From Alphaproteobacteria bacterium (GTDB taxonomy: Bacteria; Pseudomonadota; Alphaproteobacteria; UBA8366; Aestuariispiraceae), in contig JASJDC010000004.1 of NCBI GenBank assembly GCA_030065235.1, forward strand, positions 62,001-126,000: DNA of 64,000 nucleotides, given 5' to 3'. A program made the position numbers and the translations under genes. This document shows, piece by piece, positions 1-15,225 of this stretch. The notes below the pieces were generated by a model, which saw nothing but the letters and a program-made list of their open reading frames with translations, had not been told where the DNA came from and did not search any database. Every line of letters begins with the position of its first letter. Within the stretch, counting starts at the first letter, position 1.

Positions 1-759
1 GCGCTGGCGAAGCGCCTGCGCGCCGTGCCGGAATATGCGCTGCTGTTCGGCAAGGCCTATCCGGAGATCGAGCGGATTGAGGACATCACCTATGTCCACG
101 CGGCCAACGCGATCGGGGATTTCATCTCTTTCGAATGGCGCGCTGATGACAGCCCGTTCGACCGATATCTACGCGGCGACGGCGACGCGCTGACCGCAGA
201 ACAGAAACGCGGGATGGATCTGTTCTATGGCGAGGCCGGGTGCGCCGCGTGCCACAGCGGCAAGTTCCAGACCGATCATGGCTTCCACGCCATCGCCATG
301 CCGCAGCTCGGCGCGCCGCGCACGCGGCTTTTCGACCCGGTCATCCGGGATCGCGGCCGGATCAACGAGAGCGACCAGGTCGAGGACGCGTATAAATTCC
401 GCACCCCCAGCCTGCGCAATGTCGCCCAGACGGGTCCCTACGGGCATAGCGGAGCCTACCGCGATCTGGAGGCGATGGTGCGTCACGTTCTCGACCCGGT
501 CGCGGGCCACGCCAATTACGACCGGCGCCAGGCGGTGCTGCCGAAGCACCCCTATCTTAGCGCGATGGATTGGGCGGCGCAGGAGAACGCGCGGGAGACG
601 GCGGCGCTGGTGGCCGCGGTCACGCTGGAACCGGTCGACCTCGCGGATGCGGATGTCGCCGCCTTGGTGGCCTTTCTCAACGCCCTGACCGATCCCGCCT
701 CGCTGAAAGGCCGCCTGGGTCGGCCCGAAACCGTCCCCAGCGGCCTGCCGGTCGATTAG
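1..759 (+). CDS. Di-heme cytochrome c peroxidase family protein, C-terminal part (5' end outside window)
   Basis: The reading frame is open from the first base, so the N-terminal half, which should carry the first heme site, lies outside the window. The visible 252 residues contain one c-type heme motif, CAACH (about residues 80-84), followed by the conserved FRTPSLRNVAQTGPYGHSGA stretch typical of the C-terminal heme domain of bacterial di-heme peroxidases and MauG-like proteins. Such proteins act in the periplasm, reducing hydrogen peroxide with electrons from a small cytochrome or, in MauG relatives, oxidising a partner protein. It lies 24 bases upstream of the sugar kinase on the same strand, so co-transcription is possible, but no functional link is evident. 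The family call is firm; the substrate is unknown. Confidence 0.8.
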   Translation, partial: ALAKRLRAVPEYALLFGKAYPEIERIEDITYVHAANAIGDFISFEWRADDSPFDRYLRGDGDALTAEQKRGMDLFYGEAGCAACHSGKFQTDHGFHAIAMPQLGAPRTRLFDPVIRDRGRINESDQVEDAYKFRTPSLRNVAQTGPYGHSGAYRDLEAMVRHVLDPVAGHANYDRRQAVLPKHPYLSAMDWAAQENARETAALVAAVTLEPVDLADADVAALVAFLNALTDPASLKGRLGRPETVPSGLPVD

Positions 760-783: not shown

Positions 784-1689
784 GTGACCCATCCCGCGCT
801 CAAGATCGTGTGCATCGGCCAGGCCGTAGTCGATGTCGTGATGACGGTCGAGACCATGCCAAGGCGGGCCGAGAAATACCGGGCCGAAGACACCGCCATC
901 GTCGGCGGCGGCTGCGCGGCGAATGCGGCGGTCGCCATCGCGCGGCTGGGCGGCCGGGCTATCTGGGGCGGCCGGCTGGGCCAGGACGAAATCGGCGACC
1001 TGATCCTGCGCGGCCTCGAAGCGGAACAGGTCGATTGCGCCCTGGCCAAACGATTTGAAACCGGCCGCAGTTCTTTCTCCACAATCCTGATCGACGGCGC
1101 CGGAGAACGGCAGATCGTGAATTTCCGCGATCCGGATCTGGCCGAAGACGCCGACTGGCTGGCCCAAGCGCTGCCGGAGGATGCATCGGCGATCCTGGCC
1201 GATACGCGCTGGGGACCGGGCGCGGCGGTCGCGATGGCGGCGGCGAAACGCCTCGGCGTTCCCGGTGTGATGGACGCGGAGGCGCCGGTTTCCGTCGCGA
1301 TGGAGGCGCTTGAGTTGGCCTCGCATGTTGTATTCTCGGCCCAGGGTCTGGCGGATTTGACCGGCGAAGACGCCCTGCTGGCGGGCCTGAAACAGGCGCG
1401 CGACCGGCTTCCCGGCTTTATCGCCGTGACAGACGGGCGGGCGGGCGTCTTTTGGCTCGAAGAAGACGGCCTTGCCAACGAACCGGGCTTTCCGGTCGAT
1501 GTAGTGGACACATTGGGGGCGGGCGATGTATGGCATGGCGCCTTCGCGCTGGCCTTGGGGGAAGGGCGAGACCTGCGGCCGGCCTTGCGCTTCGCTAACG
1601 CCGCCGCCTCTTTGAAATGCAGCCGCCCGGGCGGACGGGATGGCACGCCGGACCGGACCGCTGTGAACAGCTTTCTGGCCGAGCGGTAA
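784..1689 (+). CDS. PfkB-family sugar kinase, YihV (sulfofructose kinase)-like
   Basis: A 301-residue ribokinase-fold kinase starting with GTG. The N-terminal GGGCAANAA motif (41-49) and the C-terminal PfkB signature DTLGAGDVWHG (242-252), with D248 as the catalytic base, are intact. It resembles E. coli sulfofructose kinase YihV (sequence recalled from memory) across its length: EKYRAED, ERQIVNFRDPDL, ILADTRW and SLKCSRPGGRDGTPD have close counterparts. K31, N113 and R142 fall where YihV has K27, N109 and R138, which I recall as its sulfonate-binding residues. If so, it would phosphorylate 6-deoxy-6-sulfofructose at C1. The aldolase gene follows after 18 bases. An ordinary ketose or deoxy-gluconate kinase is the main alternative. 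PfkB family is certain; substrate is inferred. Confidence 0.88.
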   Translation: MTHPALKIVCIGQAVVDVVMTVETMPRRAEKYRAEDTAIVGGGCAANAAVAIARLGGRAIWGGRLGQDEIGDLILRGLEAEQVDCALAKRFETGRSSFSTILIDGAGERQIVNFRDPDLAEDADWLAQALPEDASAILADTRWGPGAAVAMAAAKRLGVPGVMDAEAPVSVAMEALELASHVVFSAQGLADLTGEDALLAGLKQARDRLPGFIAVTDGRAGVFWLEEDGLANEPGFPVDVVDTLGAGDVWHGAFALALGEGRDLRPALRFANAAASLKCSRPGGRDGTPDRTAVNSFLAER

Positions 1690-1707
1690 ATGCGGAAGTA
1701 GAGACGC

Positions 1708-2763
1708 ATGATGGAACTGACGCCTGGCAAATTATGGGGTCTACGGCGCATTGCGGATCGCGCCGGCCGGTTCAAGATGACCGCCGTCGATCAGCGCCCG
1801 CCGATCAAGAACCCAATCGCCGCCCATTACGGCATGGCGCATGCGCCCTATGACGATGTCGCAGGCTTCAAGGCGCTCTTGGTTGAGACCCTGCAACCGG
1901 CCTCGACGGCGATGCTGCTGGACCCGCATTTCGCGATCCCGCGCGCGCTCGACCTCTATGACCCGGCCAGAGGGCTGATCGTGACCCTGGAGGACTCGGT
2001 CTTTGAGGACACGCCGGTCGGGCGCAAATCCTCGGAAATCGATGCCTGGTCCGTCGAGAAGATCAAGCGCATGGGCGGCGACGCGGTGAAGGTCCTGACC
2101 TGGGACCGGCCTGACGCCGGCCCCGCCGTGGTCCAGCATCAACGCGACTTCACCAAGCGCATCGGCGAGGCCTGCGCCCGCTTCGATATTCCGTTCGTGC
2201 TGGAGATGCTGGTCTATCCGCTGGCCAAGGATGCCGATCAGACGCGCGATTATGTCGAGATGACCGGCAAGAACAGCGACCACGTGCTTGCGAGCGTCGC
2301 CGAATTCGCCAAGCCCGACTATGGGGTCGATCTGTTCAAGCTGGAAAGCCCCGTCGCGGCGGACTCCGTGACGGCCCCAGGCGCGGAAGGCTCCGACAAA
2401 GTGCAGGCCCTGTTCGACGAGATGGGGCGGCTGGCCGGGCGACCCTGGGTGATGCTTTCCGCCGGGGCCGACAAGGCGGCCTTCCGCAATATTCTCAGCC
2501 ACGCCTACCGCGCGGGCGCCAGCGGCTATCTTGCAGGGCGCGCGATCTGGCTCGACGCGTTCAAGCTGTTCCCCGATTGGGACGGCATGCGTGCGGCGCT
2601 GAGTAAAGACAGCCTGAGCTACATGGACTCGCTGAACGCGCTGACCGATGCAGAGGCGACGCCCTGGACCGCGCATCCGGTCTATCGCCCGCTCTATGGC
2701 GAGGCCGGACCGGCCATCCGCCCGAACGATGGCGGCTTTCGACACGACTATCCCGGTTTCTGA
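1708..2763 (+). CDS. Class I (Schiff-base) aldolase of the LacD/YihT type
   Basis: A 351-residue TIM-barrel aldolase. The N-terminal GRFKMTAVDQRPP (20-32) matches the AVDQR motif of tagatose-1,6-bisphosphate aldolase LacD and sulfofructose-1-phosphate aldolase YihT. K211, in VDLFKLESP, is the likely Schiff-base lysine. VMLSAG (248-253) and SGYLAGRAIW (272-281) form the phosphate-binding end and match the corresponding YihT segment as I recall it. The product would be dihydroxyacetone phosphate plus an aldehyde, sulfolactaldehyde if the pathway is sulfoglycolytic. The C-terminal tail of about 50 residues is longer than in YihT. It sits between the kinase (18 bases) and the isomerase (32 bases) in one apparent operon. 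LacD-type sugar specificity remains possible. Confidence 0.82.
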   Translation: MMELTPGKLWGLRRIADRAGRFKMTAVDQRPPIKNPIAAHYGMAHAPYDDVAGFKALLVETLQPASTAMLLDPHFAIPRALDLYDPARGLIVTLEDSVFEDTPVGRKSSEIDAWSVEKIKRMGGDAVKVLTWDRPDAGPAVVQHQRDFTKRIGEACARFDIPFVLEMLVYPLAKDADQTRDYVEMTGKNSDHVLASVAEFAKPDYGVDLFKLESPVAADSVTAPGAEGSDKVQALFDEMGRLAGRPWVMLSAGADKAAFRNILSHAYRAGASGYLAGRAIWLDAFKLFPDWDGMRAALSKDSLSYMDSLNALTDAEATPWTAHPVYRPLYGEAGPAIRPNDGGFRHDYPGF

Positions 2764-2795
2764 CCCGGCCGAAACGAAATGACGGAGACAGAGTG

Positions 2796-4211
2796 ATGAG
2801 TGACGGCAAAACGATTGGCGTGCTGGCGCTGGGCCGCCCGACCTTCGATGTGCCCTTCGCCGAGGAGATGGCGGCCAAGGCCTTCGCCACGCTCGACGCG
2901 ACGCCGCATCGGATCGTCGGGTCGCGCGGTCTGTTGTTCGACACCGAGGCGACGGAGGAAGCGCTGGAAGCGCTCGGAAATCAGAGCCTGGATATGGTGC
3001 TGATCCTGCAGGTCACTTTCACCGACGCCAGTATGACGGTCGCCATCGCCAACCGCTTCGACACGCCCCTCGCCATCTGGTCTTTCCCGGAACCGAGGGT
3101 CGGCGGGCGGCTCCGCCTGAACTCGTTCTGCGGCTTGAATTTGGCGGGACACGCACTTGGCCTGAACCAGCACCCGTTCTCCTATCTTTACGCCGCGCCG
3201 GGCCCGGACGCGGCCGAGGCGGTCGAAGAGTTGCTGGCGGGCGGCCGTCAGGCGGGGGACGCAGCGGTTACGCGCCCCAACGTCGCGCCGGACGCGCAGG
3301 CCAAGGCGGACGCCGTCGTCGCCACGCTGCGGGGCGCGAAGATCGGCCGGCTGGGCGATCATCCCGGCGGCTTCGACACGTGCGGCTATGACCCGGACGC
3401 CGTGCGGGACCTGGCCGGCGTCACGGTCGAGGCGATGCCGCTCGATACGTTGTTCGACAAGGCGCAAGCGGTTTCCGAGGACGCGGTGCAGCAGACCCGC
3501 ACCCTGGCGGAACGCGATGTCGGCGGCTTGGACTCGGTCGATCAGGATCAGTTGGATAAATCCCTGCGCCTGAAAAACGCTTTGGACGAAATTCGGTCGG
3601 AAGGCGGCTATGCGGCCTTCGCCATCCGCTGCTGGCCCGAGACCTTCACCGAATATGGCGGCGCGGTTTGCGGACCGGTCTCGATGATGGGCGAAAAACG
3701 CGTCCCTTGCGCCTGCGAGGCGGACATCTATGGCGCGATGACCAGCCTGATCCTGCAAGGAATCGCCGACGCCCCGACCTTCCAAGTCGATCTGGTCGAT
3801 ATCGACACCGAGGACGATAGCTGCATCGTCTGGCATTGCGGACAGGCGCCGATCAGCATGGCCGATCGCGAGGCGGAGGCCGAAGAGGCGACCGCCACGA
3901 TCCACACCAACCGGAAGATGCCGCTGCTCTATGAATTCGCCCTGAAGCCGGGGACCGTCACCTTCGCCCGGCTGAGCCAGTCTCGCGGCGAGCCGAAGCT
4001 GGTGATCGCGCGCGGCGAAATGCTGCGGCGTCCCAAAGCTTTCACCGGCACCTCCGGCGCCGTGCGGTTCGACGCCGGCGCCGATCGGGTTCTAAAGTCG
4101 CTCATGGATGGCGGGTTGGAGCATCATACCGGTCTGGTCTATGGCGATTTTGTCGAGGAGCTGAAAGGCGTCGCCAAGGCGCTCGGGGTCCCGGTTCTGG
4201 AGATCGCCTAG
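2796..4211 (+). CDS. L-fucose/L-arabinose isomerase-family protein, candidate sulfosugar isomerase
   Basis: A 471-residue protein of the FucI/AraA isomerase superfamily, which uses a divalent metal to interconvert aldoses and ketoses. The C-terminal domain shows RCWPETFTEYGGAVCGPVS followed by CACEADIYGA, where the Glu and Asp are the expected metal ligands, and IVWHCGQAP, which supplies a His. The N-terminal half has the Rossmann-like start GKTIGVLALGRPTFD. ATG at 2796 is preferred over the GTG just before it because a GGAG lies 8 bases upstream. Its place after a YihV-like kinase and a YihT-like aldolase makes it the aldose-ketose isomerase of the pathway. I recall that the sulfoquinovose isomerase of sulfo-EMP2 pathways (SqvD) belongs to this fold rather than to the YihS fold. 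Substrate unproven. Confidence 0.75.
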   Translation: MSDGKTIGVLALGRPTFDVPFAEEMAAKAFATLDATPHRIVGSRGLLFDTEATEEALEALGNQSLDMVLILQVTFTDASMTVAIANRFDTPLAIWSFPEPRVGGRLRLNSFCGLNLAGHALGLNQHPFSYLYAAPGPDAAEAVEELLAGGRQAGDAAVTRPNVAPDAQAKADAVVATLRGAKIGRLGDHPGGFDTCGYDPDAVRDLAGVTVEAMPLDTLFDKAQAVSEDAVQQTRTLAERDVGGLDSVDQDQLDKSLRLKNALDEIRSEGGYAAFAIRCWPETFTEYGGAVCGPVSMMGEKRVPCACEADIYGAMTSLILQGIADAPTFQVDLVDIDTEDDSCIVWHCGQAPISMADREAEAEEATATIHTNRKMPLLYEFALKPGTVTFARLSQSRGEPKLVIARGEMLRRPKAFTGTSGAVRFDAGADRVLKSLMDGGLEHHTGLVYGDFVEELKGVAKALGVPVLEIA

Positions 4212-4247
4212 CCGATCGACGCGAAGCGGGATTGGGGAAAGACCGCG

Positions 4248-5348
4248 ATGACAGAGATACGCTATGGCCTTATCGGCGCGGGCATGATGGGCCAAGAACA
4301 TATCCGCAACCTGGCCTTGCTGGAGGGCGCGACAGTCGCGGCTTTGGCCGATCCCGACGACGCCATGCGCCATCAATCGGCCGACCTGGCGGGCGCGGCA
4401 GCCCGGGCTTTCGGCGACTATCGCGACCTGTTGAGCTGGGCTTCGGCCGAGGACTCGCTGGATGCGCTGATCATCGCCAGCCCGAACCACACCCATGCCG
4501 GCGTGTTGGATGACGTGCTGGCCACGCCGTTGCCGGTCCTTGTGGAAAAGCCGCTTTGCACGACCAGCGCCGATTGCGTCCAAGTCCAGGAACGCAGCGC
4601 GGCGCGCATGGCCCCTGTCTGGGTGGCGATGGAGTACCGCTACATTCCCCCGGTCGCTGAAATCCTGCGTGCGATGCAAGCAGGCGAAATTGGGCAGCCG
4701 CACATGCTCACGATCCGCGAACATCGCTTCCCCTTCCTGGAAAAGGTTGGCGATTGGAACCGGTTCAACCGCTACACTGGCGGCACCTTGGTCGAGAAAT
4801 GCTGTCACTTCTTCGACCTGATGCGGCTGTTCGCCGGCGCCGACCCGACCCGGGTTTTCGCGGTCGGCGGTCAGGCGGTGAACCATCTCGACGAGTCGTA
4901 TCAGGGCGAACGGCCGGACATCCTCGACAATGCGATGGTGACTGTGGCGTTTGAGAACGGCATGAACGCATCGCTGGAGCTCTGCATGTTCGCCGACGGC
5001 GCCTATTTCCAGGAGGATATCAGCGTCATCGGCGATGCGGCGAAGATTGAGGCCAAAGTACCGGGCCCCGCCCGCTTCTGGCCCGGCGGGGAGGAGCGCG
5101 CCGCCGAGGTGACATTCTCGCCGCGCGATCCTAAAGGCCCGCAAGACCGCCCGGTCGCTGTCGACACCCATATTCTTGAAGCTGGCGATCACCATGGCAG
5201 CACCTATTACCAACACGAGCGGTTCCGAGACCTGATCCGCGCCGGATCGGGCCAGCCTGATGTAACGGTCGAGGATGGACTATGGTCTGTGCGCATGGGC
5301 GAAGCGGCCGAACGCTCGATCCAGACCGGCGAGGCGATCCGCTTCTAG
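4248..5348 (+). CDS. Gfo/Idh/MocA-family NAD-dependent protein (oxidoreductase or NAD-dependent glycosidase)
   Basis: A 366-residue two-domain protein. The N-terminal Rossmann fold has YGLIGAGMMGQEH (6-18), and the family lysine is in EKPLC (100-104), followed by EYRYIPP (129-135). TGGTLVEKCCHFFDLMR (177-193) supplies the conserved His187. Classical members oxidise sugars or inositols with NAD(P), but GH109 and the more recent GH188 family use bound NAD as a redox cofactor to cleave glycosides. GH188 members are sulfoquinovosidases found with sulfo-EMP2 genes (recalled). In this operon it could therefore release sulfoquinovose from glycosides such as sulfoquinovosyl glycerol. A sugar dehydrogenase is the conservative alternative. 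The gene starts 36 bases after the isomerase. No signal peptide, so it acts in the cytoplasm. Confidence 0.78.
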   Translation: MTEIRYGLIGAGMMGQEHIRNLALLEGATVAALADPDDAMRHQSADLAGAAARAFGDYRDLLSWASAEDSLDALIIASPNHTHAGVLDDVLATPLPVLVEKPLCTTSADCVQVQERSAARMAPVWVAMEYRYIPPVAEILRAMQAGEIGQPHMLTIREHRFPFLEKVGDWNRFNRYTGGTLVEKCCHFFDLMRLFAGADPTRVFAVGGQAVNHLDESYQGERPDILDNAMVTVAFENGMNASLELCMFADGAYFQEDISVIGDAAKIEAKVPGPARFWPGGEERAAEVTFSPRDPKGPQDRPVAVDTHILEAGDHHGSTYYQHERFRDLIRAGSGQPDVTVEDGLWSVRMGEAAERSIQTGEAIRF

Positions 5349-5389
5349 CGGCGGTTTGGCGAGGTTTTTGCGATAAGGAGGCGCGTCCG

Positions 5390-6439
5390 ATGGTTGATCC
5401 CAAGAAGCTGCAGCAGCTTCGCGAGCGCTACGCCGACGCCGCCGCCAGCGAGATTTATGACCCGACCCTGGCGAAGGCGGCGGACGCCCTGTTCAGCGAC
5501 GGCGACAAACGGACCAAACCCTATGCGGGGGTTTCGACGTTTCTTGACGCCCCCTACCGCGAGATCGACGAAGCGGCGCCGAACCTTGACGGGTTGGACA
5601 TCGCCCTGATTGGCGTGCCGATGGATCTGGGGGTCACCAATCGGCCCGGCGCCCGGTTCGGCCCGCGCGCCGTTCGGACGATCGAGCGGATCGGCCCTTT
5701 CCACCATGTCCATAAGATCGCGCCGCTGACCATGCGCCAGGTCGCCGACATCGGCGACGTCCGCTTTCGCAGCCGCTACAGCCTGGACGACTCGATCGCC
5801 GATATCGAACGCTTCTACACGGCCGTCACCGCACAAGGCGTCTTGCCATTAAGCGTCGGCGGCGATCATTCGGTCAGCTATCCGATCCTCAAGGCCCTGG
5901 GCCGCGAGCGCCCGGTCGGCCTGATCCATATCGACGCGCATTGCGATACGAGCGGCGTAACGGACGGCGCCAAATTCCATCATGGCGGCCCGTTCCGGCA
6001 TGCGGTCCTGGACGGCGCCCTCGATCCCGAACGCACGATCCAGATCGGCATTCGCGGCTCCGCCGAGTTCCTATGGGAATTCTCCTACGAGTCCGGGATG
6101 ACCGTGATCCATGCCGAGGAATTTCACCGCATGGGCGTCGATGCTGTGATCGACAAGGCGCGCGCCGTGGTCGGCGACGGGCCGGTCTATCTGTCGCTCG
6201 ATGTCGATGGGCTGGACCCGGCCTATGCACCCGGCACCGGCACGCCCGAGGCGGGCGGGCTCAGCCCGCGCGAGACGCTGATGCTGTTCCACGGACTGAC
6301 CGGCCTCGACGTGATCGGCGGAGACGTGGTTGAGGTGGCGCCGCAATATGACGCCAGCAGCAACACCGCCCAGGTCGGCGCGCAAATCCTGTTCGAAATG
6401 CTCTGCCTGGCCGTCCAGAACCCGCGTCGGCGGACCTAA
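5390..6439 (+). CDS. Ureohydrolase (agmatinase/guanidinobutyrase family)
   Basis: A 349-residue arginase-superfamily enzyme that hydrolyses a guanidino compound to urea and an amine. The binuclear manganese ligands are all visible: GGDHS (157-161), DAHCDT (182-187) and LDVDGLDPAYAPGTGTPE (270-287). ATG at 5390 has AAGGAG about 10 bases upstream, which decides against the longer upstream frame. About 65 residues precede the core, more than in short agmatinases and similar to guanidinobutyrase, guanidinopropionase or guanidine hydrolase relatives. Substrate cannot be told from sequence. The gene begins 41 bases after the Gfo/Idh/MocA gene, so it may be the last cistron of the sugar operon or an independent gene. 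Its stop codon overlaps the end of the convergent JmjC gene by 4 bases. Confidence 0.85.
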   Translation: MVDPKKLQQLRERYADAAASEIYDPTLAKAADALFSDGDKRTKPYAGVSTFLDAPYREIDEAAPNLDGLDIALIGVPMDLGVTNRPGARFGPRAVRTIERIGPFHHVHKIAPLTMRQVADIGDVRFRSRYSLDDSIADIERFYTAVTAQGVLPLSVGGDHSVSYPILKALGRERPVGLIHIDAHCDTSGVTDGAKFHHGGPFRHAVLDGALDPERTIQIGIRGSAEFLWEFSYESGMTVIHAEEFHRMGVDAVIDKARAVVGDGPVYLSLDVDGLDPAYAPGTGTPEAGGLSPRETLMLFHGLTGLDVIGGDVVEVAPQYDASSNTAQVGAQILFEMLCLAVQNPRRRT

Positions 6440-7647
6440 GCCGCCTTCGCCAGCACCTGCATCGACAAGAGGTCGGTCACAAGCTGGCCACGCGCTGCTT
6501 CCGGCATGTCCGGAAAGGCGGCGTCGAAATCGCTGGTGTAGAACACCTGGCGTTTGACGATCCAGCGCAGGGGCTCGGCCATGCCGGGCGGCACCGGCAC
6601 GCCCTTATTGCCGAACCGCAGCACCGGTTGCCCGTCGCGCGCGGTGACGCTGACATTCGGCGCCGCGAGGCCGTATTTCTCGCCTGCAGATGTACCGATG
6701 ATCTCACCCGGCAAGTCGTAGCCGCCGCGATGGATGGTGTCCGCCGGCTTCATCGCCGCCACCGCGTCCTTGAAACCGCGCGTCCGGCCAAGCGTGGTGA
6801 CGCGGTCCATCAAATCCTCAAGCCAAGCCTCGAACGCCGCTTCGCCCTCGTCCGGCAGCGGACGGTCGGTACGGAACGCGGCGTCCGCCAAGGCCTGTTC
6901 GAACAAGACCGTCAGAATGTCGCCGCCCAGGACATGGGTGATCCCGAAGGACAGGTGCACGCAGCCGTCGCTGGAGGCCAAAGCGTCGTGAAACAGGCCG
7001 CGTGGGATATATAGCACATCGCCCGGCCGCATCGTGACTTCATCCACCTGTTCGCCCCTCAACGCGTCCTTTTCCTCTTGCGGCATTTGCTGGAAGCGCG
7101 GACCCGCTGTCGGATTCTCGACCCGGCCTTCGAAGATGCGCCAGACTTTTTCGCCCTCGACATGCAGGGCGAAAACCTCATGCGTGTCGAAATGCGGCGG
7201 GAACGCCTTGCGCTGCGCCCATGAGCAATAAAGGTTGCTTTGCATCCGACCGCCCAGACGCCGCTCCAGCGCGTTCGCGGCAGAGCGGATGCCCGGCTGC
7301 AACGAATCGACGCCGTTGCAGACCAGCGAGGCGCCTTGCCGCAGCCAATCCTTCACCAGTTCGGAAATCGGCTGCTGGCTCATTCTCTTGTCGCGATCCT
7401 CAATCGGGCGGCAATAGCGCTGTGTCGGGATCGCCTCGGTATCGAGGAAGAGCTTGAGCGTGTTCGAGGACCAGACCCCGGACATATTCAGGATGTCCGA
7501 CAATTTGTCCCAACTCATCACATCGGAGAGTTTCTCCGAATCCGGGGCCGGAATATGCAGATAGTTCTTCTTGTGATAGTCGCGAAAGAACGTCTCCTCA
7601 TCGAAAGGGGCGATCAAATCGGCGAAAGTCTCTATGCGTTTCGACAT
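6436..7647 (-). CDS. JmjC/cupin_4 2-oxoglutarate-dependent hydroxylase (RoxA/YcfD-like)
   Basis: A 403-residue Fe(II)/2-oxoglutarate oxygenase. The facial triad is visible as FPPHFDTHEVF (H152, D154) and a distal His in IPRGLFHDALASSDGCVHLSFG (H220 or H231). The HxD motif with this spacing and the C-terminal winged region fit the bacterial RoxA/YcfD group, which hydroxylates an arginine of ribosomal protein L16. The start at MSKRIETF is chosen over an upstream GTG because family similarity begins there; no strong Shine-Dalgarno is visible. It is convergent with the ureohydrolase and divergent from the YeeE pair. The family is clear; whether the target is L16 or another protein is not. Confidence 0.8.
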   Translation of the reverse strand: MSKRIETFADLIAPFDEETFFRDYHKKNYLHIPAPDSEKLSDVMSWDKLSDILNMSGVWSSNTLKLFLDTEAIPTQRYCRPIEDRDKRMSQQPISELVKDWLRQGASLVCNGVDSLQPGIRSAANALERRLGGRMQSNLYCSWAQRKAFPPHFDTHEVFALHVEGEKVWRIFEGRVENPTAGPRFQQMPQEEKDALRGEQVDEVTMRPGDVLYIPRGLFHDALASSDGCVHLSFGITHVLGGDILTVLFEQALADAAFRTDRPLPDEGEAAFEAWLEDLMDRVTTLGRTRGFKDAVAAMKPADTIHRGGYDLPGEIIGTSAGEKYGLAAPNVSVTARDGQPVLRFGNKGVPVPPGMAEPLRWIVKRQVFYTSDFDAAFPDMPEAARGQLVTDLLSMQVLAKAA

Positions 7648-7793
7648 GGGTGCGGCTCGGCGTTGTGGTGAGTTCAAACGAAGATCGTCCAGCAGTTTAC
7701 AAGCGCGCGTCACGCCTTGGCGATGACCTAGATCAGGAAAACGCGCATCTGTGTCTTGAACTCAGGTCCGACCAACCTTAAAACTGACGATAT

Positions 7794-7809
7794 ATTCATT
7801 TCTTTGAAT
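7794..7809. promoter_or_regulatory. Inverted repeat upstream of the YeeE/YedE gene
   Basis: ATTCA-N6-TGAAT, a perfect 5-base inverted repeat in an AT-rich patch, ends 17 bases before the ATG of the YeeE/YedE permease gene. The size and AT-rich symmetry suit an ArsR/BigR-type repressor site, a common control of such sulfur transporters, but no regulator gene is nearby. Short palindromes also occur by chance. Confidence 0.35.
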
Positions 7810-7826
7810 TTGTTGGAGATCCGAAC

Positions 7827-8270
7827 ATGGCTTTCAGCCTCTTGGATGCGGCCTGGGGCGCGATCGGCGGCCTTCTGATCGGGCTGTCGGCGATGCTGTA
7901 TCTTCTGGCGAACGGCCGGATCGCCGGGATCAGCGGGATCGCGGGCCAAGCCCTGGCCGTGACGCCCGCCCCGGTCGGGGCGCGGATAGAGAGCGCCGCC
8001 TTCCTGGTCGGACTGGTCGGCGCGCCGGTCGCGCTGGCGCTGTTGACGCGTGCGCCGGAGATCGGCGTGACGACCCATGTCCCGATCCTGATCGCGGCGG
8101 GCCTGCTGGTCGGCTTCGGCACACGATTGGGGTCCGGTTGCACCAGCGGCCATGGCGTCTGCGGCATGTCCCGGTTTTCCATCCGCTCGATCGTCGCGAC
8201 CCTGAGCTTCATGGCGGTCGCCGGGATCACGGTCTTCCTTTCCCGGCATTTCCTAGGAGGCGCGGCATGA
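7827..8270 (+). CDS. YeeE/YedE family sulfur-species permease, subunit 1
   Basis: A 147-residue membrane protein with four predicted hydrophobic segments. It carries the signature RLGSGCTSGHGVCG (100-113), whose cysteines C105 and C112 are typical of the YeeE/YedE (sulf_transp) family that moves thiosulfate or other reduced sulfur species across the inner membrane. It is a half-size protein, so it pairs with the following gene to form the complete fold. The coding regions overlap by 4 bases (ATGA), implying translational coupling. The upstream region is AT-rich with an inverted repeat. Confidence 0.85.
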   Translation: MAFSLLDAAWGAIGGLLIGLSAMLYLLANGRIAGISGIAGQALAVTPAPVGARIESAAFLVGLVGAPVALALLTRAPEIGVTTHVPILIAAGLLVGFGTRLGSGCTSGHGVCGMSRFSIRSIVATLSFMAVAGITVFLSRHFLGGAA

Positions 8271-8719
8271 ACCATCCAGAACACCGCCTGCAGCGCATCG
8301 GCGTCGCCCTGGTCTCCGGTATTCTTTTCGGTCTGGGTCTGACCCTGTCCGATATGATCGATCCTGCGCGGGTCCTAGCCTTTCTCGATGTCGCCGGCGG
8401 GGCCTGGGATCCGACGCTCGCTTTCGTGATGGGCGGCGCGCTGGCGCCGATGGTGCTGGCTTGGCGGCTTTCGGCGCGGCTCGAACGGCCGCGCTTCAGC
8501 CTGGATTTTCCTTCGGCGCGACAAGAAATCGACAGCCGGCTACTCGGCGGGGCGGCCCTATTCGGCGCCGGCTGGGGCCTGGTCGGATTCTGTCCCGGCC
8601 CGGCGCTGGCGGCCTTGTTCCTCGGCGGAACCCCGACCCTGATTTTCCTGGCCGCGCTGGCCGTCGGCATGGGCGTGCACGGTCTCTTGAACAGCCGCGT
8701 CCTCGCCAGCCCGGCCTAG
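8267..8719 (+). CDS. YeeE/YedE-associated DUF6691 membrane protein, subunit 2
   Basis: A 150-residue membrane protein preceded by AGGAGG at 8255-8260 and starting inside the stop codon of the previous gene. The segments GILFGLGLTLSDMIDP and WGLVGFCPGPALAAL contain the conserved glycine-rich turn and single cysteine that characterise the second half of split YeeE/YedE transporters (PmpB-like). It probably forms one sulfur-compound channel with its partner. It may take up or export thiosulfate, sulfide equivalents or persulfide; the direction cannot be inferred. No sulfur-oxidation enzymes flank it. Confidence 0.82.
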   Translation: MNHPEHRLQRIGVALVSGILFGLGLTLSDMIDPARVLAFLDVAGGAWDPTLAFVMGGALAPMVLAWRLSARLERPRFSLDFPSARQEIDSRLLGGAALFGAGWGLVGFCPGPALAALFLGGTPTLIFLAALAVGMGVHGLLNSRVLASPA

Positions 8720-8772
8720 CGGATCCGACGCCGCATCTCCACCAGTGCGGTTCACCGACCAAAGACCAATTG

Positions 8773-8806
8773 GTTCGCTTAGCAAACATATCTTCGGATC
8801 GCGAAC
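8773..8806. promoter_or_regulatory. Candidate operator upstream of catI
   Basis: In the 248-base gap before catI, GTTCGCTTAGCAAAC (8773-8787) is a 15-base near-palindrome with one mismatch per arm. Its first arm GTTCGC is also exactly complementary to GCGAAC at 8801-8806. IclR-type regulators of beta-ketoadipate genes (PcaU, PcaR, CatR) bind short palindromes and repeats of this kind. No such regulator is encoded in the window, so this is only a candidate. Confidence 0.3.
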
Positions 8807-8967
8807 TTTTTGATGTCTCATCGCGATCGGTATGCTATCCACCGGTCAGTAGATCCTGCTCGAACGGCATAGGGCGGTCGCGGCGGCGACCTTGGCGACG
8901 GCGCCGGGCGCAAAGGCCGCTCTCGACCTGAGTCCGCCCCTGTTTGAGCGCTGATGAGAGAGTGACC

Positions 8968-9828
8968 ATGGCGCAATTTCAAGACCTGGCCCAAGCGATC
9001 GCGGAGAATATCCGACCCGGCGATACCGTGGCGTTGGAGGGATTCACCCATTTGATCCCGCACGCCGCCGCGCATGAACTGATCCGCCAGCAGATCGGCG
9101 ATCTGACGCTGATCCGGATGACGCCGGACCTGATCTACGATCAATTGATCGGCATGGGGTTGGTGAAAAAACTGATCTTCTCCTATGCCGGCAATCCCGG
9201 GGTCGGGCTGCTGCGTCGGATGCGCGACGCGGTCGAGAATGGCTGGCCGCGGCCGATCGAGCTGGAGGAGCATTCCCACAGCGCCATGGCCCAGGCCTAT
9301 GAGGCCGGCGCCGCCGGTCTGCCCTGCGCGATCTTCCGCGGCTACAAAGGCGCCGGCCTGAAAGCCGTAAACCCCAACATCCGCGAGGTCGCCTGCCCCT
9401 TCACCGGCGAGGCGCTGGCCGCCGTACCGGCGCTGCGCCCAGACGTGACGGTCATCCACGCCCAGCGCGCCAACAGGCGGGGCGATGTCCTGATCGAAGG
9501 CATCATCGGCGTCCAGAAGGAAGCGGTCCTGGCCGCCAAACGGGCGGTGGTGACCGTCGAAGAGGTGGTCGAGGATTTCGCCGACCTGCATCCCAACGCC
9601 TGCGTCCTGCCGCGTTGGACGGTGGCCGGCATCGCGACCGCGCCCGGCGGCGCGAACCCGTCTTACGCGCATGGCTATTACGACCGGGACAACGCCGCCT
9701 ATTTGGAATGGGACAAGATCGCCGCCGATCGGGATCGTTTTCTGGCTTGGATGGAGACCCATGTACTGAAAGCGCGGCCGGAGATCTTCCAGGATCGGGT
9801 CGCCGGCCTTCGGAGGGACGCCGCATGA
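8968..9828 (+). CDS. catI: 3-oxoadipate CoA-transferase, alpha subunit
   Basis: A 286-residue family I CoA-transferase subunit. GDTVALEGFTHLIPHAA, RMTPDLIYDQLIG, NPGVGLLRRMRDAVENGWP and PSYAHGYYDRDN agree with Pseudomonas CatI as I remember it, closer than to PcaI or glutaconate CoA-transferase. With CatJ it moves CoA from succinyl-CoA to 3-oxoadipate, giving 3-oxoadipyl-CoA in the beta-ketoadipate pathway for aromatic breakdown. The ATG at 8968 is chosen over an upstream TTG because family similarity begins there and GAGAGAG lies at 8956-8962. The catJ start overlaps its stop by 4 bases. The downstream pcaF confirms the pathway. Confidence 0.9.
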   Translation: MAQFQDLAQAIAENIRPGDTVALEGFTHLIPHAAAHELIRQQIGDLTLIRMTPDLIYDQLIGMGLVKKLIFSYAGNPGVGLLRRMRDAVENGWPRPIELEEHSHSAMAQAYEAGAAGLPCAIFRGYKGAGLKAVNPNIREVACPFTGEALAAVPALRPDVTVIHAQRANRRGDVLIEGIIGVQKEAVLAAKRAVVTVEEVVEDFADLHPNACVLPRWTVAGIATAPGGANPSYAHGYYDRDNAAYLEWDKIAADRDRFLAWMETHVLKARPEIFQDRVAGLRRDAA

Positions 9829-10613
9829 GCCCCGTAACCCCGACTGAATTCATGACCATCGCCGCGGCGCGCGCGCTCTCAAACGACGACGTTGTCTTCG
9901 TCGGCATCGGCGCGCCTTCCGCCGCCTGCAATCTGGCGCGGCTGACCCATGCGCCGGATATCACCTTGATCTATGAAAGCGGCACAATCGGCACGGCGCC
10001 CGAGGTGCTGCCGCTCTCGATCGGCGACGGCGAGCTCTGCGACACCGCCGTCACCACTGTCTCGGTGCCGGAGATGTTCCGCTATTGGCTGCAAGGCGGG
10101 CGGATCAGCGTCGGTTTCCTGGGCGCCGCCCAGATCGACCGGTTCGGCAATATCAACACGACCGTGATCGGCGACTATGACACGCCGAAGACCCGCCTGC
10201 CCGGCGGCGGCGGCGCGCCGGAGATCGCCACATCCTGCGGCAAGATTTTCATCACCATGAAACAGTCCCGGCGCGGTTTCGTCGAGAAGATCGACTTTTT
10301 CACCTCTTTCGGGCATGGGACCGGCGGCGACGACCGCGCCCGGCTTGGGATCACGACCGAAGGGCCGGTGTTGCTGGTCACCGATCTGGCGGTCTGGAAG
10401 CCCGATCCCGAGACCAAGGAATTCACCGTCGTCTCGCTGCATCCCGGCGTGACGCGCGATCAGGTGCAAGAGACGTGCGGCTGGACCGTACGCTATGCCG
10501 AGACGGTCGAAGAAACGCCGCCGCCGACCGACCTTGAACTGACGACTCTGCGCGACCTGCATGCCCGAACACACGCGGCCCATAGCGGCGCGCGGCCCAC
10601 GGCGGCGGCCTGA
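9825..10613 (+). CDS. catJ: 3-oxoadipate CoA-transferase, beta subunit
   Basis: A 262-residue CoA-transferase beta subunit beginning in the ATGA overlap with catI. LIYESGTIGTAPEVLPLSIG contains the ESG(T/A)xG signature with the catalytic glutamate that forms the enzyme-CoA thioester. GFLGAAQIDRFGNINTT and the LPGGGGAPEIA turn fit the family. It pairs with CatI in a heteromultimer in the cytoplasm. The coupled gene order catI-catJ-pcaF is the usual terminal beta-ketoadipate arrangement. The closely related glutaconate CoA-transferase is a less likely alternative because of the pcaF neighbour. Confidence 0.9.
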   Translation: MSPVTPTEFMTIAAARALSNDDVVFVGIGAPSAACNLARLTHAPDITLIYESGTIGTAPEVLPLSIGDGELCDTAVTTVSVPEMFRYWLQGGRISVGFLGAAQIDRFGNINTTVIGDYDTPKTRLPGGGGAPEIATSCGKIFITMKQSRRGFVEKIDFFTSFGHGTGGDDRARLGITTEGPVLLVTDLAVWKPDPETKEFTVVSLHPGVTRDQVQETCGWTVRYAETVEETPPPTDLELTTLRDLHARTHAAHSGARPTAAA

Positions 10614-10645
10614 GCGCGCGCCCTGTTTGTGAAGGACCAGATTCG

Positions 10646-11851
<1,206 letters not shown>

Positions 11852-11918
11852 GCGGAGTCGGATTCCAGCAGGTTGAACAGAACCCGACCCACTTACTCAC
11901 GGTAGCGCCTTCGCGTCC

Positions 11919-12518
11919 CTACTGCGTCAGTTTCTTCGCGATACCCGCGACATGGCGGCCTTGGTCGGCGGCGAGTTTTAACTCTGCGGCGCTAGGTTGG
12001 CGGGAGCCGTCGGCGGCGGCGATCGTGCCGGCCCCATAGGGCGACCCGCCGCGTACCTCATCGATGCTGGCCAGTTCCGGGCTCGCATAGGGCAGGCCGG
12101 CGATCAGCATGCCGTGATGGGCCAGCGTGTGCCAGAATGAGGTGATGGTGGTCTCGTTGCCGCCGCCGGTGCCGGTCGAGGTGAAGACGGAGCCGACCTT
12201 GCCGATCAGCTTGCCCCCAGCCCAGAGGCCGCCGGTCTGGTCCAGGAAGTTGCGCATCTGCGACGCCATATTGCCGAACCGGGTCGGGGTTCCGAACAGG
12301 ATGGCGTCATAGTCCGCCAGTTCCGCCGGTTCGGCGATGGGCGCCGCCTGGTCGAGTTTGAAGTTATTTCTCTTCGCGGCTTCCTCAGGCACGAGTTCCG
12401 GCACGCGCTTGACCGTGACCGACACGCCTTCGACATCGCGGGCGCCGTCGGCGACCGCGCCGGCCATCGTCTCGATATGGCCGTAAGTGGAATAGTAGAG
12501 AACAAGAATTTTGGTCAT
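11919..12518 (-). CDS. wrbA: NAD(P)H:quinone oxidoreductase, WrbA type
   Basis: A 199-residue flavodoxin-fold enzyme. The FMN phosphate loop is [12 protein letters not shown] (8-19). [26 protein letters not shown] and the [12 protein letters not shown] loop are diagnostic of WrbA, which makes two-electron reductions of quinones in oxidative stress defence. The start has AGGAGC 8 bases upstream. It is transcribed away from the dimethylglycine-dehydrogenase-like gene, and the 283-base divergent region between them holds a near-perfect inverted repeat that may control it. Confidence 0.93.
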
Positions 12519-12612
12519 GGAAATGCTCCTTTCAGGGTCGGAATTGTCGGCGCTGTCTCGCGCTGGCCTTGCGGCGTCTGCGCGTCAGAGAAGCATGTAA
12601 GCGTCGCCTTGC

Positions 12613-12649
12613 GTAAACAGTAGGGGTCAAATCGGGAAATACTGTTCAC
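12613..12649. promoter_or_regulatory. Long inverted repeat in the wrbA upstream region
   Basis: GTAAACAGTA (12613-12622) and TACTGTTCAC (12640-12649) are complementary at 9 of 10 positions across a 17-base spacer, with an uninterrupted 7-base core (AACAGTA/TACTGTT). It lies about 95-130 bases upstream of wrbA and about 150 bases upstream of the divergent flavoprotein gene, so it could serve either. Quinone-responsive HxlR/MarR-type regulators use AGTA/TACT half sites, which would suit wrbA. The regulator is not in the window. Confidence 0.4.
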
Positions 12650-12801
12650 TCTCGTGGATAATCGCCGGCGATCCGGTGCGCCTGGACCGGATCGGAAGGT
12701 GCTAGACACATCTGGCCTGTCTCAGTCACACTTCATCGAAGCCGCCGCCAGCCGGGCGAAAGGTCGCGTCTGGCTGATTTCCATCGGGGAGGCATGACGG
12801 C

Positions 12802-15225
12802 ATGAAATCGCAATACCGGGTCGTGGTGATCGGCGGCGGGGTCGTCGGGGCCTCGGTCCTCTATCATCTGGCGAAATTCGGCTGGTCCGACGTGGCGCTG
12901 GTCGAGCGGTCGGTCCTGACGGCGGGGTCGAGCTGGCACGCGGCGGGCGGGATCCATGCGCTCAACGCAGACCCGAACATGGCGGCCCTGCAGGCCTACA
13001 CGATCGACCTGTTGGGCGAGATCGGCGCGGAGAGCGGTCAGGATATCGGCCTCCACATGACCGGCGGCATCACCGTCGCCGCTGACCCGAACCGCTGGGA
13101 ATGGCTGCAATCGGCCTATCGCATTTTCCAGACCATCGGGATCGAGGATTGCTGGCTGATGACGCCGGAGCAGATCAAGGAACGCTGCCCCATCATGGAT
13201 ACGACGGGCGTGATCGGCGGGCTTTGGGCCGACCGCGAGGGCTATGTCGACACCACCGGCACGGTCCACGCCTACGCCAAGGCGGCGCGCAAACACGGGG
13301 CCGAGGTGATCGAACACAACCGCGTTCTCGATCTGAAACAGCGACCCGACGACAGTTGGGACGTGGTGACCGAGAAGGGAACCATCATCGCCGAGCATGT
13401 GATCAACGCCGGCGGACTTTGGGCCAAACAGGTCGGGCGGATGGTCGGGCTCGACCTGCCGCTGTCGCCGCTCGAGCATCACTATCTTATCACCGAGGAC
13501 ATCCCGGAAGTCGCGGCGATGGATTTCGAAGTGCCGATGACCGTCGATCTGGAAGGCTTCACCTATCTGCGCCAGGACCAGAAGGGCGTCCTACTGGGCA
13601 TCTATGAGCTGCAGCACAAACATTGGAACATGGACGGCGCGCCCTGGGACTATGGGTTCGAACTGATCCAAGAGGATTTCGACCGGATCGAAAAAGAGCT
13701 TGAGATGGGCTTCAACCGCTACCCCTGCCTGCAAGAGGTCGGGGTGAAGCGTTGGGTCAATGGGGCATTCACCTTCTCGCCGGACGGCAACCCGCTGGTC
13801 GGCCCGGTCGCGGGCGTGCGGAACTATTGGCTCGCCTGCGGGGTGATGGCCGGCTTCCTCCAAGGCGGCGGCGTGGGCAAAACGCTGGCCGAGTGGATGA
13901 TCAATGGCGAGCCGGAGGCCGACGCCTATTCCATGGATATCGCGCGCTATGGCGCTTTCGCCAGCAATCGAGAGTATATCAAACAGACGACCGGCCAGTT
14001 CTATTCCCGCCGATTTGTGATGACCTATCCGAACGAGCAACTGCCCGCCGGGCGGTCGTTGAAAAAGGCGCCGGCCCACGACGCCATGAATGCGGCGGGC
14101 GCGCTTTGGGGTTGCAGTTGGGGGCTCGAGGTTCCGCTGATGTTCGGCCCGCCCGGCTTCACCGAAACGCCAACCCTGAAACGCTCCAACGCCTTCGACA
14201 TCGTGGGGGAGGAATGCCGCGCGGTGCGCGACGCTGTCGGGCTGCTCGATATCACCGGCTTCTCGCGCTACGAAGTCACCGGCCCCGACGCGGAGGCCTG
14301 GCTGAACCAAGTGATGGCCAGCCGCCTACCCGCGCCCGGACGCGCGCGGCTGGCCCCGATGCTGGCGCACAGCGGCCGGTTGAAAGGCGACCTGACTGTC
14401 TTCAACTGGGGCGACGGGACCTGGTGGATCATGGGCAGCTACTATCTGCGGGCCTGGCACATGCGCTGGTTCGTAGACCGCCAGCGCGAGTTGGGTTTGG
14501 ATGTTGCGATCCGCGATATCTCCGACACGGTCTGCGGCTTCTCGCTCTCCGGCCCGAACAGCCGGAAAGTGGTGGAGAAGCTGACCAATAGCGATATCGG
14601 CCCCGAGGCCCTGCCCTTCATGGGCTGCCGGGAGATGGATGTCGGCCTGATCCGCACCAAGGTCGGCCGGCTCTCGGTCTGCGGCGAGCTGGGCTATGAG
14701 ATCAATTGTCAGGCGCTGGAACACGCGACCCTGCGGGAATTGCTGTTGGCCGCCGGCGCTGATCTGGGCCTGCGCGAATATGGCTACTACGCGCTCAACG
14801 CGCTGCGGCTCGAGAAAAGTTTCGGGATCTGGAACGCCGAGTTCATGCAGGCTTACACGCCGGGCATGACCGGGCTGGATCGCTGGATCGATTTCAGCAA
14901 GCCGGACTTCATCGGCCGCGCCGCGGCGCTGAAAGAGAAGGAATCGAACACCGCGCCGCACCGGCTTGTGACGCTGGAAGTCGATGCGGCGGATGCTGAC
15001 GCCTCGGGCTACGAGCCGGTCTGGAAGGACGGAAGGCGGGTCGGCTATGTCACCTCCGGCGGCTACGGCCACACGGTCGGCAAGAGCCTGGCCATGGCGC
15101 TGGTTGAGCCAGACTGCACCGAACCAGGCGCGGCGCTCAGCGCGCATGTTGTCGGCGTCGAACGCGCGGCCACTGTCATCCAAGCCGCGCCCTACGATCC
15201 GCAAGGGGTCGCGATGCGGCTTTAG
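12802..15225 (+). CDS. FAD-dependent dimethylglycine/sarcosine dehydrogenase-like protein with GcvT domain
   Basis: An 807-residue fusion. Residues 1-380 form a DAO-type FAD oxidoreductase: VVVIGGGVVGASV binds FAD and AGSSWHAAGG places H46 where the dimethylglycine and sarcosine dehydrogenases attach FAD covalently. Residues from about 430 to the end form the aminomethyltransferase (GcvT) fold with the C-terminal barrel, which captures the demethylated carbon on tetrahydrofolate. It probably oxidatively demethylates an N-methylated amino acid such as dimethylglycine. No betaine or sarcosine genes flank it, so the exact substrate is open. It is the only gene of its operon visible: rodA converges from the other side only 10 bases away. 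Confidence 0.85.
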   Translation: MKSQYRVVVIGGGVVGASVLYHLAKFGWSDVALVERSVLTAGSSWHAAGGIHALNADPNMAALQAYTIDLLGEIGAESGQDIGLHMTGGITVAADPNRWEWLQSAYRIFQTIGIEDCWLMTPEQIKERCPIMDTTGVIGGLWADREGYVDTTGTVHAYAKAARKHGAEVIEHNRVLDLKQRPDDSWDVVTEKGTIIAEHVINAGGLWAKQVGRMVGLDLPLSPLEHHYLITEDIPEVAAMDFEVPMTVDLEGFTYLRQDQKGVLLGIYELQHKHWNMDGAPWDYGFELIQEDFDRIEKELEMGFNRYPCLQEVGVKRWVNGAFTFSPDGNPLVGPVAGVRNYWLACGVMAGFLQGGGVGKTLAEWMINGEPEADAYSMDIARYGAFASNREYIKQTTGQFYSRRFVMTYPNEQLPAGRSLKKAPAHDAMNAAGALWGCSWGLEVPLMFGPPGFTETPTLKRSNAFDIVGEECRAVRDAVGLLDITGFSRYEVTGPDAEAWLNQVMASRLPAPGRARLAPMLAHSGRLKGDLTVFNWGDGTWWIMGSYYLRAWHMRWFVDRQRELGLDVAIRDISDTVCGFSLSGPNSRKVVEKLTNSDIGPEALPFMGCREMDVGLIRTKVGRLSVCGELGYEINCQALEHATLRELLLAAGADLGLREYGYYALNALRLEKSFGIWNAEFMQAYTPGMTGLDRWIDFSKPDFIGRAAALKEKESNTAPHRLVTLEVDAADADASGYEPVWKDGRRVGYVTSGGYGHTVGKSLAMALVEPDCTEPGAALSAHVVGVERAATVIQAAPYDPQGVAMRL

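Follow-up and report, generated by a model that had tools for sequence, protein, structure and literature searches.

Which sugar is degraded, and by which route, by the compact four-gene operon at the beginning of the 64,000-nucleotide stretch of alphaproteobacterial DNA analyzed here (the window, G000:C6:62001-126000, part of contig C6 in a 4.18 Mb genome)? The four open reading frames (ORFs), confirmed at positions 784-5348, lie on one strand (+) with intergenic gaps of 18-36 bp; they and their Pfam and NCBIfam matches agree with the tandem of PfkB kinase, Schiff-base aldolase, FucI/AraA-fold isomerase and Gfo/Idh/MocA protein that an earlier sequence-only reading had described. The coding nature of the first three is backed by third-position GC. 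That reading had assigned the operon to the sulfo-EMP2 variant of the sulfoglycolytic Embden-Meyerhof-Parnas (sulfo-EMP) pathways, which degrade sulfoquinovose (SQ), the sulfur sugar found in the membranes of plants and algae, which has marine alphaproteobacteria among its consumers. SQ is produced at an annual scale of about 10 billion tons (PMC10755693). Our analysis indicates that the locus is very probably a hybrid sulfo-EMP operon for SQ catabolism. The sugar itself is well supported, because the SQ contacts of the sulfoquinovosidase SqgA are conserved in the fourth protein, the kinase resembles YihV, and the isomerase matches the SftI model.

The fourth protein, for which a glycoside hydrolase family 188 (GH188) ancestry had been suggested, has as its top PDB matches the GH188 sulfoquinovosidases 8qc2 and 8qc3, together with 8zn9, annotated merely as a putative oxidoreductase (full-length phmmer, E about 1e-124), and its best match beyond this group is just 1e-18. 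The eight residues through which ArSqgA contacts SQ and its sulfonate (K107, Y136, R166, L170, K172, E189, H193 and H321; PMC10755693) are all kept at a constant offset of 6, as K101, Y130, R160, L164, K166, E183, H187 and H315, and all of them, the sulfonate triad R160/L164/K166 included, are invariant across 64 relatives. The variant with Tyr for Leu170 (PMC11465081) is not seen here, Leu (L164) being retained. The prediction of a GH188-type sulfoquinovosidase is thus well supported; GH188 does not, as had been supposed, mark sulfo-EMP2, since it accompanies several SQ pathways.

The kinase proved to be as YihV-like as first thought. Its top PDB match is the Escherichia coli sulfofructose kinase 7ag6 (1e-71), with the runner-up (1e-49) 72 bits lower, and it shares 43% identity with E. 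coli YihV. Its K31, N113 and R142 align with YihV K27, N109 and R138, which we take to form the sulfonate pocket; K31 and R142 are invariant, and 63 of 72 relatives also have N113.

For the isomerase the sole NCBIfam match is SftI "sulfoquinovose isomerase" (NF048012), at 302 bits; since the equivalog cut-off is 700, its sequence places it as related to SftI and not as an SftI proper. The isomerase group to which it belongs scores 234-343 bits against this model, and FucI/AraA-like proteins from other scanned contexts 87-105. The structure model (predicted local distance difference test, pLDDT, 92) is predicted to have the AraA/FucI fold over about 300 residues (about 165-472), with Z 31-35 and a root-mean-square deviation (rmsd) of 2.3-2.8 to AraA and FucI. 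This comparison is taken from the VIA alignment of the catalytic part and not from the full-length Foldseek comparison, in which a template modelling score (TM) of about 0.57 and an rmsd of 24 probably reflect a differing domain arrangement. E283, E309, H444 and H445 are invariant and, as possible metal ligands, have a spacing that resembles that of the AraA/FucI ligands.

The aldolase scores over the NCBIfam PRK12858 cut-off and is of class I, its Schiff-base K211 aligning with YihT K193 and being invariant in 69 relatives. Of the proposed likeness to LacD and YihT, only part survives: identity to YihT is only 30%, with 70 bits against 122 for LacD and 314 for 8tnf, the nearest solved chain, an entry without stated function. 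By sequence the enzyme falls in the LacD/PRK12858 clade and is not a close YihT relative. LacD aldolases are lax at C4, so membership in this clade says nothing about the substrate.

From these relationships we infer the enzymatic activities, the transported substrate, the roles of the accessory proteins and the fate of sulfolactaldehyde in the following scheme. A tripartite ATP-independent periplasmic (TRAP) transporter encoded upstream would import SQ or SQ-glycerol, with a MauG-like di-haem protein and a Sel1-repeat protein probably serving as periplasmic accessories to uptake. The GH188-type enzyme, judging from its family and residues, would cleave the glycoside by a mechanism in which bound NAD transiently oxidizes C3; a metal-dependent SqvD/SftI-type isomerase would convert open-chain SQ to sulfofructose, and the YihV-type kinase would convert this to sulfofructose-1-phosphate. 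The class I aldolase would then yield sulfolactaldehyde and dihydroxyacetone phosphate, which enters central metabolism. Sulfolactaldehyde is probably oxidized, in many sister clusters, to sulfolactate and on to sulfopyruvate and sulfoacetaldehyde, or to pyruvate and sulfite.

Related loci were obtained by scanning genome contigs with the isomerase as query, which gave 80 loci (53-68% identity) whose neighbors were counted within the available flanks. Nearly all belong to Alphaproteobacteria, mainly to marine or saline genera (Afifella, Stappia, Shimia, Hoeflea, Roseibium, Nitratireductor and others); the closest is a Rhodospirillales metagenome-assembled genome (isomerase 68%). In a survey of 385 sampled genomes of the class, an isomerase match of any kind occurs in 11, and one of at least 48% in just 6, the own genome counted in both, and the family to which the window belongs lacks it in all 13 of its other genomes. 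This patchy spread, in the class and in the family, fits horizontal transfer. All four enzymes are present at 56 of the 80 loci, and at 55 of these 56 (55/80 overall) they follow the order kinase, aldolase, isomerase, GH188 on one strand in less than 6 kb. Taken singly, the neighbors among the 80 loci were the kinase (73), the aldolase (69) and GH188 (65); DctP (58), Sel1 (48) and the MauG-like protein (44); an SlcC-like 2-hydroxyacid dehydrogenase (46), a DeoR regulator (38), an aldose-1-epimerase (37) and a GabD-like aldehyde dehydrogenase (31); and ComD (12), ComE (12), SuyA-like (10), SuyB-like (8) and ComC-like (7) genes. As negative controls, an agmatinase and a HIBADH gene were seen at 1 locus each, a TPR and a JmjC gene at none. 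The sister-cluster ComD exceeds the curated cut-off for sulfopyruvate decarboxylase (TIGR03845), and the best NCBIfam match of the ComC-like protein is L-sulfolactate dehydrogenase, under cut-off. Because sister loci carry ComD, ComE, ComC-like, SlcC-like and SuyAB-like genes, the operon is placed in sulfonate metabolism independently of its four core enzymes. Seven loci of the Silicimonas/Boseongicola type (L041, L051, L054, L064, L067, L080 and L096) retain kinase, isomerase, aldehyde dehydrogenase and SlcC, with no aldolase, GH188 or TRAP gene within their flanks.

The operon begins before the first base of the window, where the tail of the di-haem gene lies. That no transporter is found was correct for the window; overall it was not, for a complete TRAP system (DctQ, DctM and DctP) lies 3-6 kb upstream of the window start (region C6:44001-64000). 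MauG, Sel1 and DctP (over 60% identity) occur together at 43 of the 80 loci; among the 39 loci with both MauG and the kinase, 35 place MauG upstream of the kinase by no more than 300 bp. Sel1 was found in 8 of 8 block-bearing loci tested. DctP (75-82%) and the di-haem protein are also present in seven genomes of the class survey that lack the isomerase (G166, G205, G224, G263, G283, G320 and G341). In five of six such genomes inspected (G166, G224, G263, G283 and G341) the block is adjoined by GH188, a GntR regulator, an SsuD-like monooxygenase (TIGR03565, 246-256 bits in two scanned, under cut-off) and an aldo-keto reductase, to which four of these five genomes add a flavin reductase; by sequence, these neighbors match the composition of the SQ monooxygenase (SMO, SmoABC) pathway; G320 has the DctP/di-haem block without GH188 or SMO-type neighbors. 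Since it accompanies GH188 and SmoABC-like genes in genomes that lack the isomerase, the TRAP-Sel1-MauG block follows SQ rather than the isomerase route.

Its SQ-specific members are Sel1 and DctP. MauG was rejected as such, the family also occurring without TRAP or Sel1, as where its neighbors are sugar ABC transporters and VCBS-like proteins. Paralogous MauG-like genes at three loci (L160, L161 and L162) have as neighbors, recognized by eye, a ROK-like regulator, sugar ABC transporter genes and a secreted protein resembling VCBS, and those at two others (L159 and L164) adjoin another small secreted protein; different secreted proteins seem to partner the di-haem family. MauG and MbnH oxidatively modify partner proteins. 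With rather less than even confidence, we suggest that TRAP transporter, small periplasmic Sel1 protein and di-haem MauG form a dedicated SQ uptake module that two chemically unrelated pathways, sulfo-SMO and hybrid sulfo-EMP, have in common. Its di-haem enzyme would carry out periplasmic redox chemistry; by analogy, this would most likely be oxidative modification of a partner (Sel1 or DctP), with removal of peroxide or direct action on the sulfosugar less likely. No description of the block was found in the searched literature, which did not cover the main Roseobacter SQ paper (PMC9938184).

Several points weigh against assigning the operon to SQ. The SftI score of the isomerase is, as noted, well under the cut-off; the searched literature yielded no enzyme assay for either the aldolase clade or the isomerase clade; no sulfolactaldehyde reductase or dehydrogenase, mutarotase or regulator adjoins the cluster; and the own genome gave no aldose-1-epimerase match. 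Genome G345 moreover has a similar set (G345:C17:3000-20000, 4107-14375; isomerase 48%, aldolase 54%, TRAP DctP 51%, kinase 48% to YihV) with an alpha-xylosidase-like GH31 enzyme and a short-chain dehydrogenase/reductase in place of GH188. This GH31 has Phe at the positions of what we take to be YihQ W304 and Y508, and it was rejected as a classical YihQ. The isomerase-kinase-aldolase set might thus serve other sugars in some distant lineages.

The earlier remark that a sulfolactaldehyde enzyme is missing holds for the own cluster, neither window nor conserved upstream block containing a sulfolactaldehyde reductase or dehydrogenase, but not for sister clusters, 31 of 80 of which carry a GabD-like candidate. 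A search of the own genome gave no ComDE match and no proper SuyAB. Its best GabD-like dehydrogenase, C7:85038-86462, is 49% identical to the cluster-associated enzyme and unlinked, with no recognizable SQ genes within 1.5 kb. Our guess, weakly supported, is that sulfolactaldehyde is oxidized outside the cluster by this enzyme and the sulfolactate exported. Three other candidates were set aside: a gene of the 3-hydroxyisobutyrate dehydrogenase (HIBADH) family (C6:54823-55839), oriented divergently to the TRAP genes, as a YihU-type reductase (32% identity, 1 of 80 relatives; at the position of GRT in YihU it retains the general SGG motif); an aldehyde dehydrogenase 25 kb distant (C6:36945-38342; 30% identical to its cluster-associated counterpart); and, as SuyAB, a single altronate-dehydratase-like ORF (C6:24201-25574; 31%).

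Among other substrates the best placed, though improbable, is another sulfosugar, chiefly sulfofucose (6-deoxy-6-sulfogalactose), degraded via sulfotagatose and sulfotagatose-1-phosphate. The aldolase does belong to the group of LacD, a tagatose-bisphosphate aldolase, but the laxity of that group at C4 deprives the clade of meaning for the substrate. The sulfofucose cluster of Paracoccus wurundjeri contains a PfkB kinase and PF01791 aldolase pair, and an EMP-like sulfotagatose route was considered for it; this pair, however, was not induced, and an Entner-Doudoroff route was shown instead (PMC12421959). Moreover, the SQ contacts of GH188 are intact here, the Glu contacting the C4 hydroxyl included, and the TRAP block is common to clusters with GH188 and of SMO type. 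Still less probable is a non-sulfonated sugar of the fucose, arabinose or tagatose type. In its favor, the enzymes are of generic classes, the matches to curated families lie mostly under their cut-offs, and the G345 set has its alpha-xylosidase-like GH31; yet the sulfonate contacts of GH188 and the YihV-equivalent K/N/R of the kinase are conserved, and sister loci are linked to sulfopyruvate decarboxylase and SuyAB-like genes. A true sulfo-EMP2 operon is scarcely credible and the label was rejected: that pathway joins SqvD to a PfkA-family kinase (SqiK, PF00365) and a class II aldolase (SqiA, PF01116) (PMC9594981), and only the SqvD/SftI-type isomerase has its counterpart here, beside a PF00294 kinase and a PF01791 class I aldolase with K211.

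Read as a hybrid sulfo-EMP operon for SQ, the locus shares with sulfo-EMP (E. coli yih; Arthrobacter sp. AK01) the PfkB sulfofructose kinase, a class I aldolase and the inferred intermediates, and with AK01 (SqgA) also GH188. It differs in its FucI/AraA-fold isomerase, which replaces YihS, its LacD/PRK12858-clade aldolase and its TRAP transporter, and YihR, YihU and YihQ are all absent from the cluster. With sulfo-EMP2 of Bacillus urumqiensis and Megamonas rupellensis it has the SqvD-type isomerase in common, and none of SqiK, SqiA, YihQ and SqvB. The GH188 "Y160" cluster of actinobacterium IMCC26103, with fucose isomerase, sulfofructose kinase, sulfofructose phosphate aldolase and sulfolactate genes (Backlund and Higgins 2024, PMC11465081), resembles ours in these three enzymes and GH188, but its GH188 has Tyr for Leu170 and its transporters are of the ABC type. 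Roseobacter-type alphaproteobacteria have sulfo-SMO clusters in which GH188 and, as found here, the TRAP-Sel1-MauG block recur; unlike the present operon these clusters cleave the C-S bond with an SmoC-type monooxygenase and have no isomerase, kinase or aldolase. The Vibrio hybrid sulfo-EMP/EMP2 (PMC13372026) is likewise a blend, but the reverse one: E. coli-like sulfo-EMP proteins with class II SqiA, against an EMP2-type isomerase with a class I aldolase. Hybrid EMP1/2 combinations have already been noted in Proteobacteria and Actinobacteria (review, PMC12890257), so the extension of range to alphaproteobacteria that had been suggested is modest, the cluster occurring in dozens of their genomes. 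GH188 neighborhoods, including that of the roseobacter Jannaschia faecimaris, are shown in a figure of PMC10755693 from whose legend the pathway type cannot be read.

A survey of SQ enzymes used thresholds of 30% identity to references and E<=1e-50 (PMC13372026); surveys of this kind could overlook the present enzyme combination if their reference set is without it. The conserved TRAP-Sel1-MauG block is a candidate SQ importer with a testable haem component of SQ use, and could serve as a marker in metagenomes.

Table. Features of the operon and of the block upstream (window positions, or contig positions where marked C6)
Feature	Position	Strand	Remarks
TRAP DctQ	C6:55885-56505	+	upstream of window
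TRAP DctM	C6:56453-57799	+	upstream of window
TRAP DctP	C6:57936-59021	+	upstream of window
Sel1-repeat protein	C6:60778-61314	-	upstream of window; signal-peptide-like start (by eye)
MauG-like di-haem protein, whole gene	C6:61326-62759		about 458-477 aa; signal-peptide-like start (by eye)
MauG-like di-haem c-type protein, 3' part	1-759	+	24 bp upstream of kinase
PfkB-family kinase, proposed sulfofructose kinase	784-1689	+	301 aa; PF00294, 2e-50
Class I aldolase, proposed sulfofructose-1-phosphate aldolase	1708-2763	+	351 aa; PF01791 (DeoC/LacD), 2e-22
FucI/AraA-fold ketol-isomerase, proposed sulfoquinovose-sulfofructose isomerase (SqvD/SftI-type)	2793-4211	+	472 aa; Fucose_iso_C PF02952
Predicted GH188-type NAD-dependent sulfoquinovosidase (SqgA-like, GFO_IDH_MocA)	4248-5348	+	366 aa

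A scan for promoters and terminators gave no signal above chance. An agmatinase/ureohydrolase-family gene follows the GH188 gene on the same strand after about 40 bp (5390-6439) and was excluded from the system, being present in 1 of 80 relatives, as was the HIBADH gene; a tetratricopeptide repeat (TPR) protein and a JmjC protein, each in 0 of 80, were excluded also. A TPR-like gene is present in the region upstream of the window (C6:44001-64000). At 7827-8719, two neighboring small membrane proteins resemble, by eye, a split YeeE/YedE-type sulfur transporter.

Two plasmids yielded further candidate sets. Plasmid pZZM402 of Zymomonas mobilis, an alphaproteobacterium long used in the laboratory (L118, 128-11361), encodes a class II aldolase, an aldose epimerase, an SqvD/SftI-type isomerase (288 bits), a Gfo/Idh/MocA protein, major facilitator superfamily transporters, a TonB receptor and a GabD-like dehydrogenase, which looks like an EMP2-style SQ cluster. 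A plasmid of Candidatus Chlorohelix allophototropha (L119, 1419-15981) carries an SQ-isomerase-like gene (343 bits), a pyrophosphate-dependent phosphofructokinase and Gfo/Idh/MocA, GabD-like, phosphoglycerate dehydrogenase (PGDH) and sulfite reductase genes; this may be an SQ cluster, in a member of the Chloroflexota that is phototrophic.

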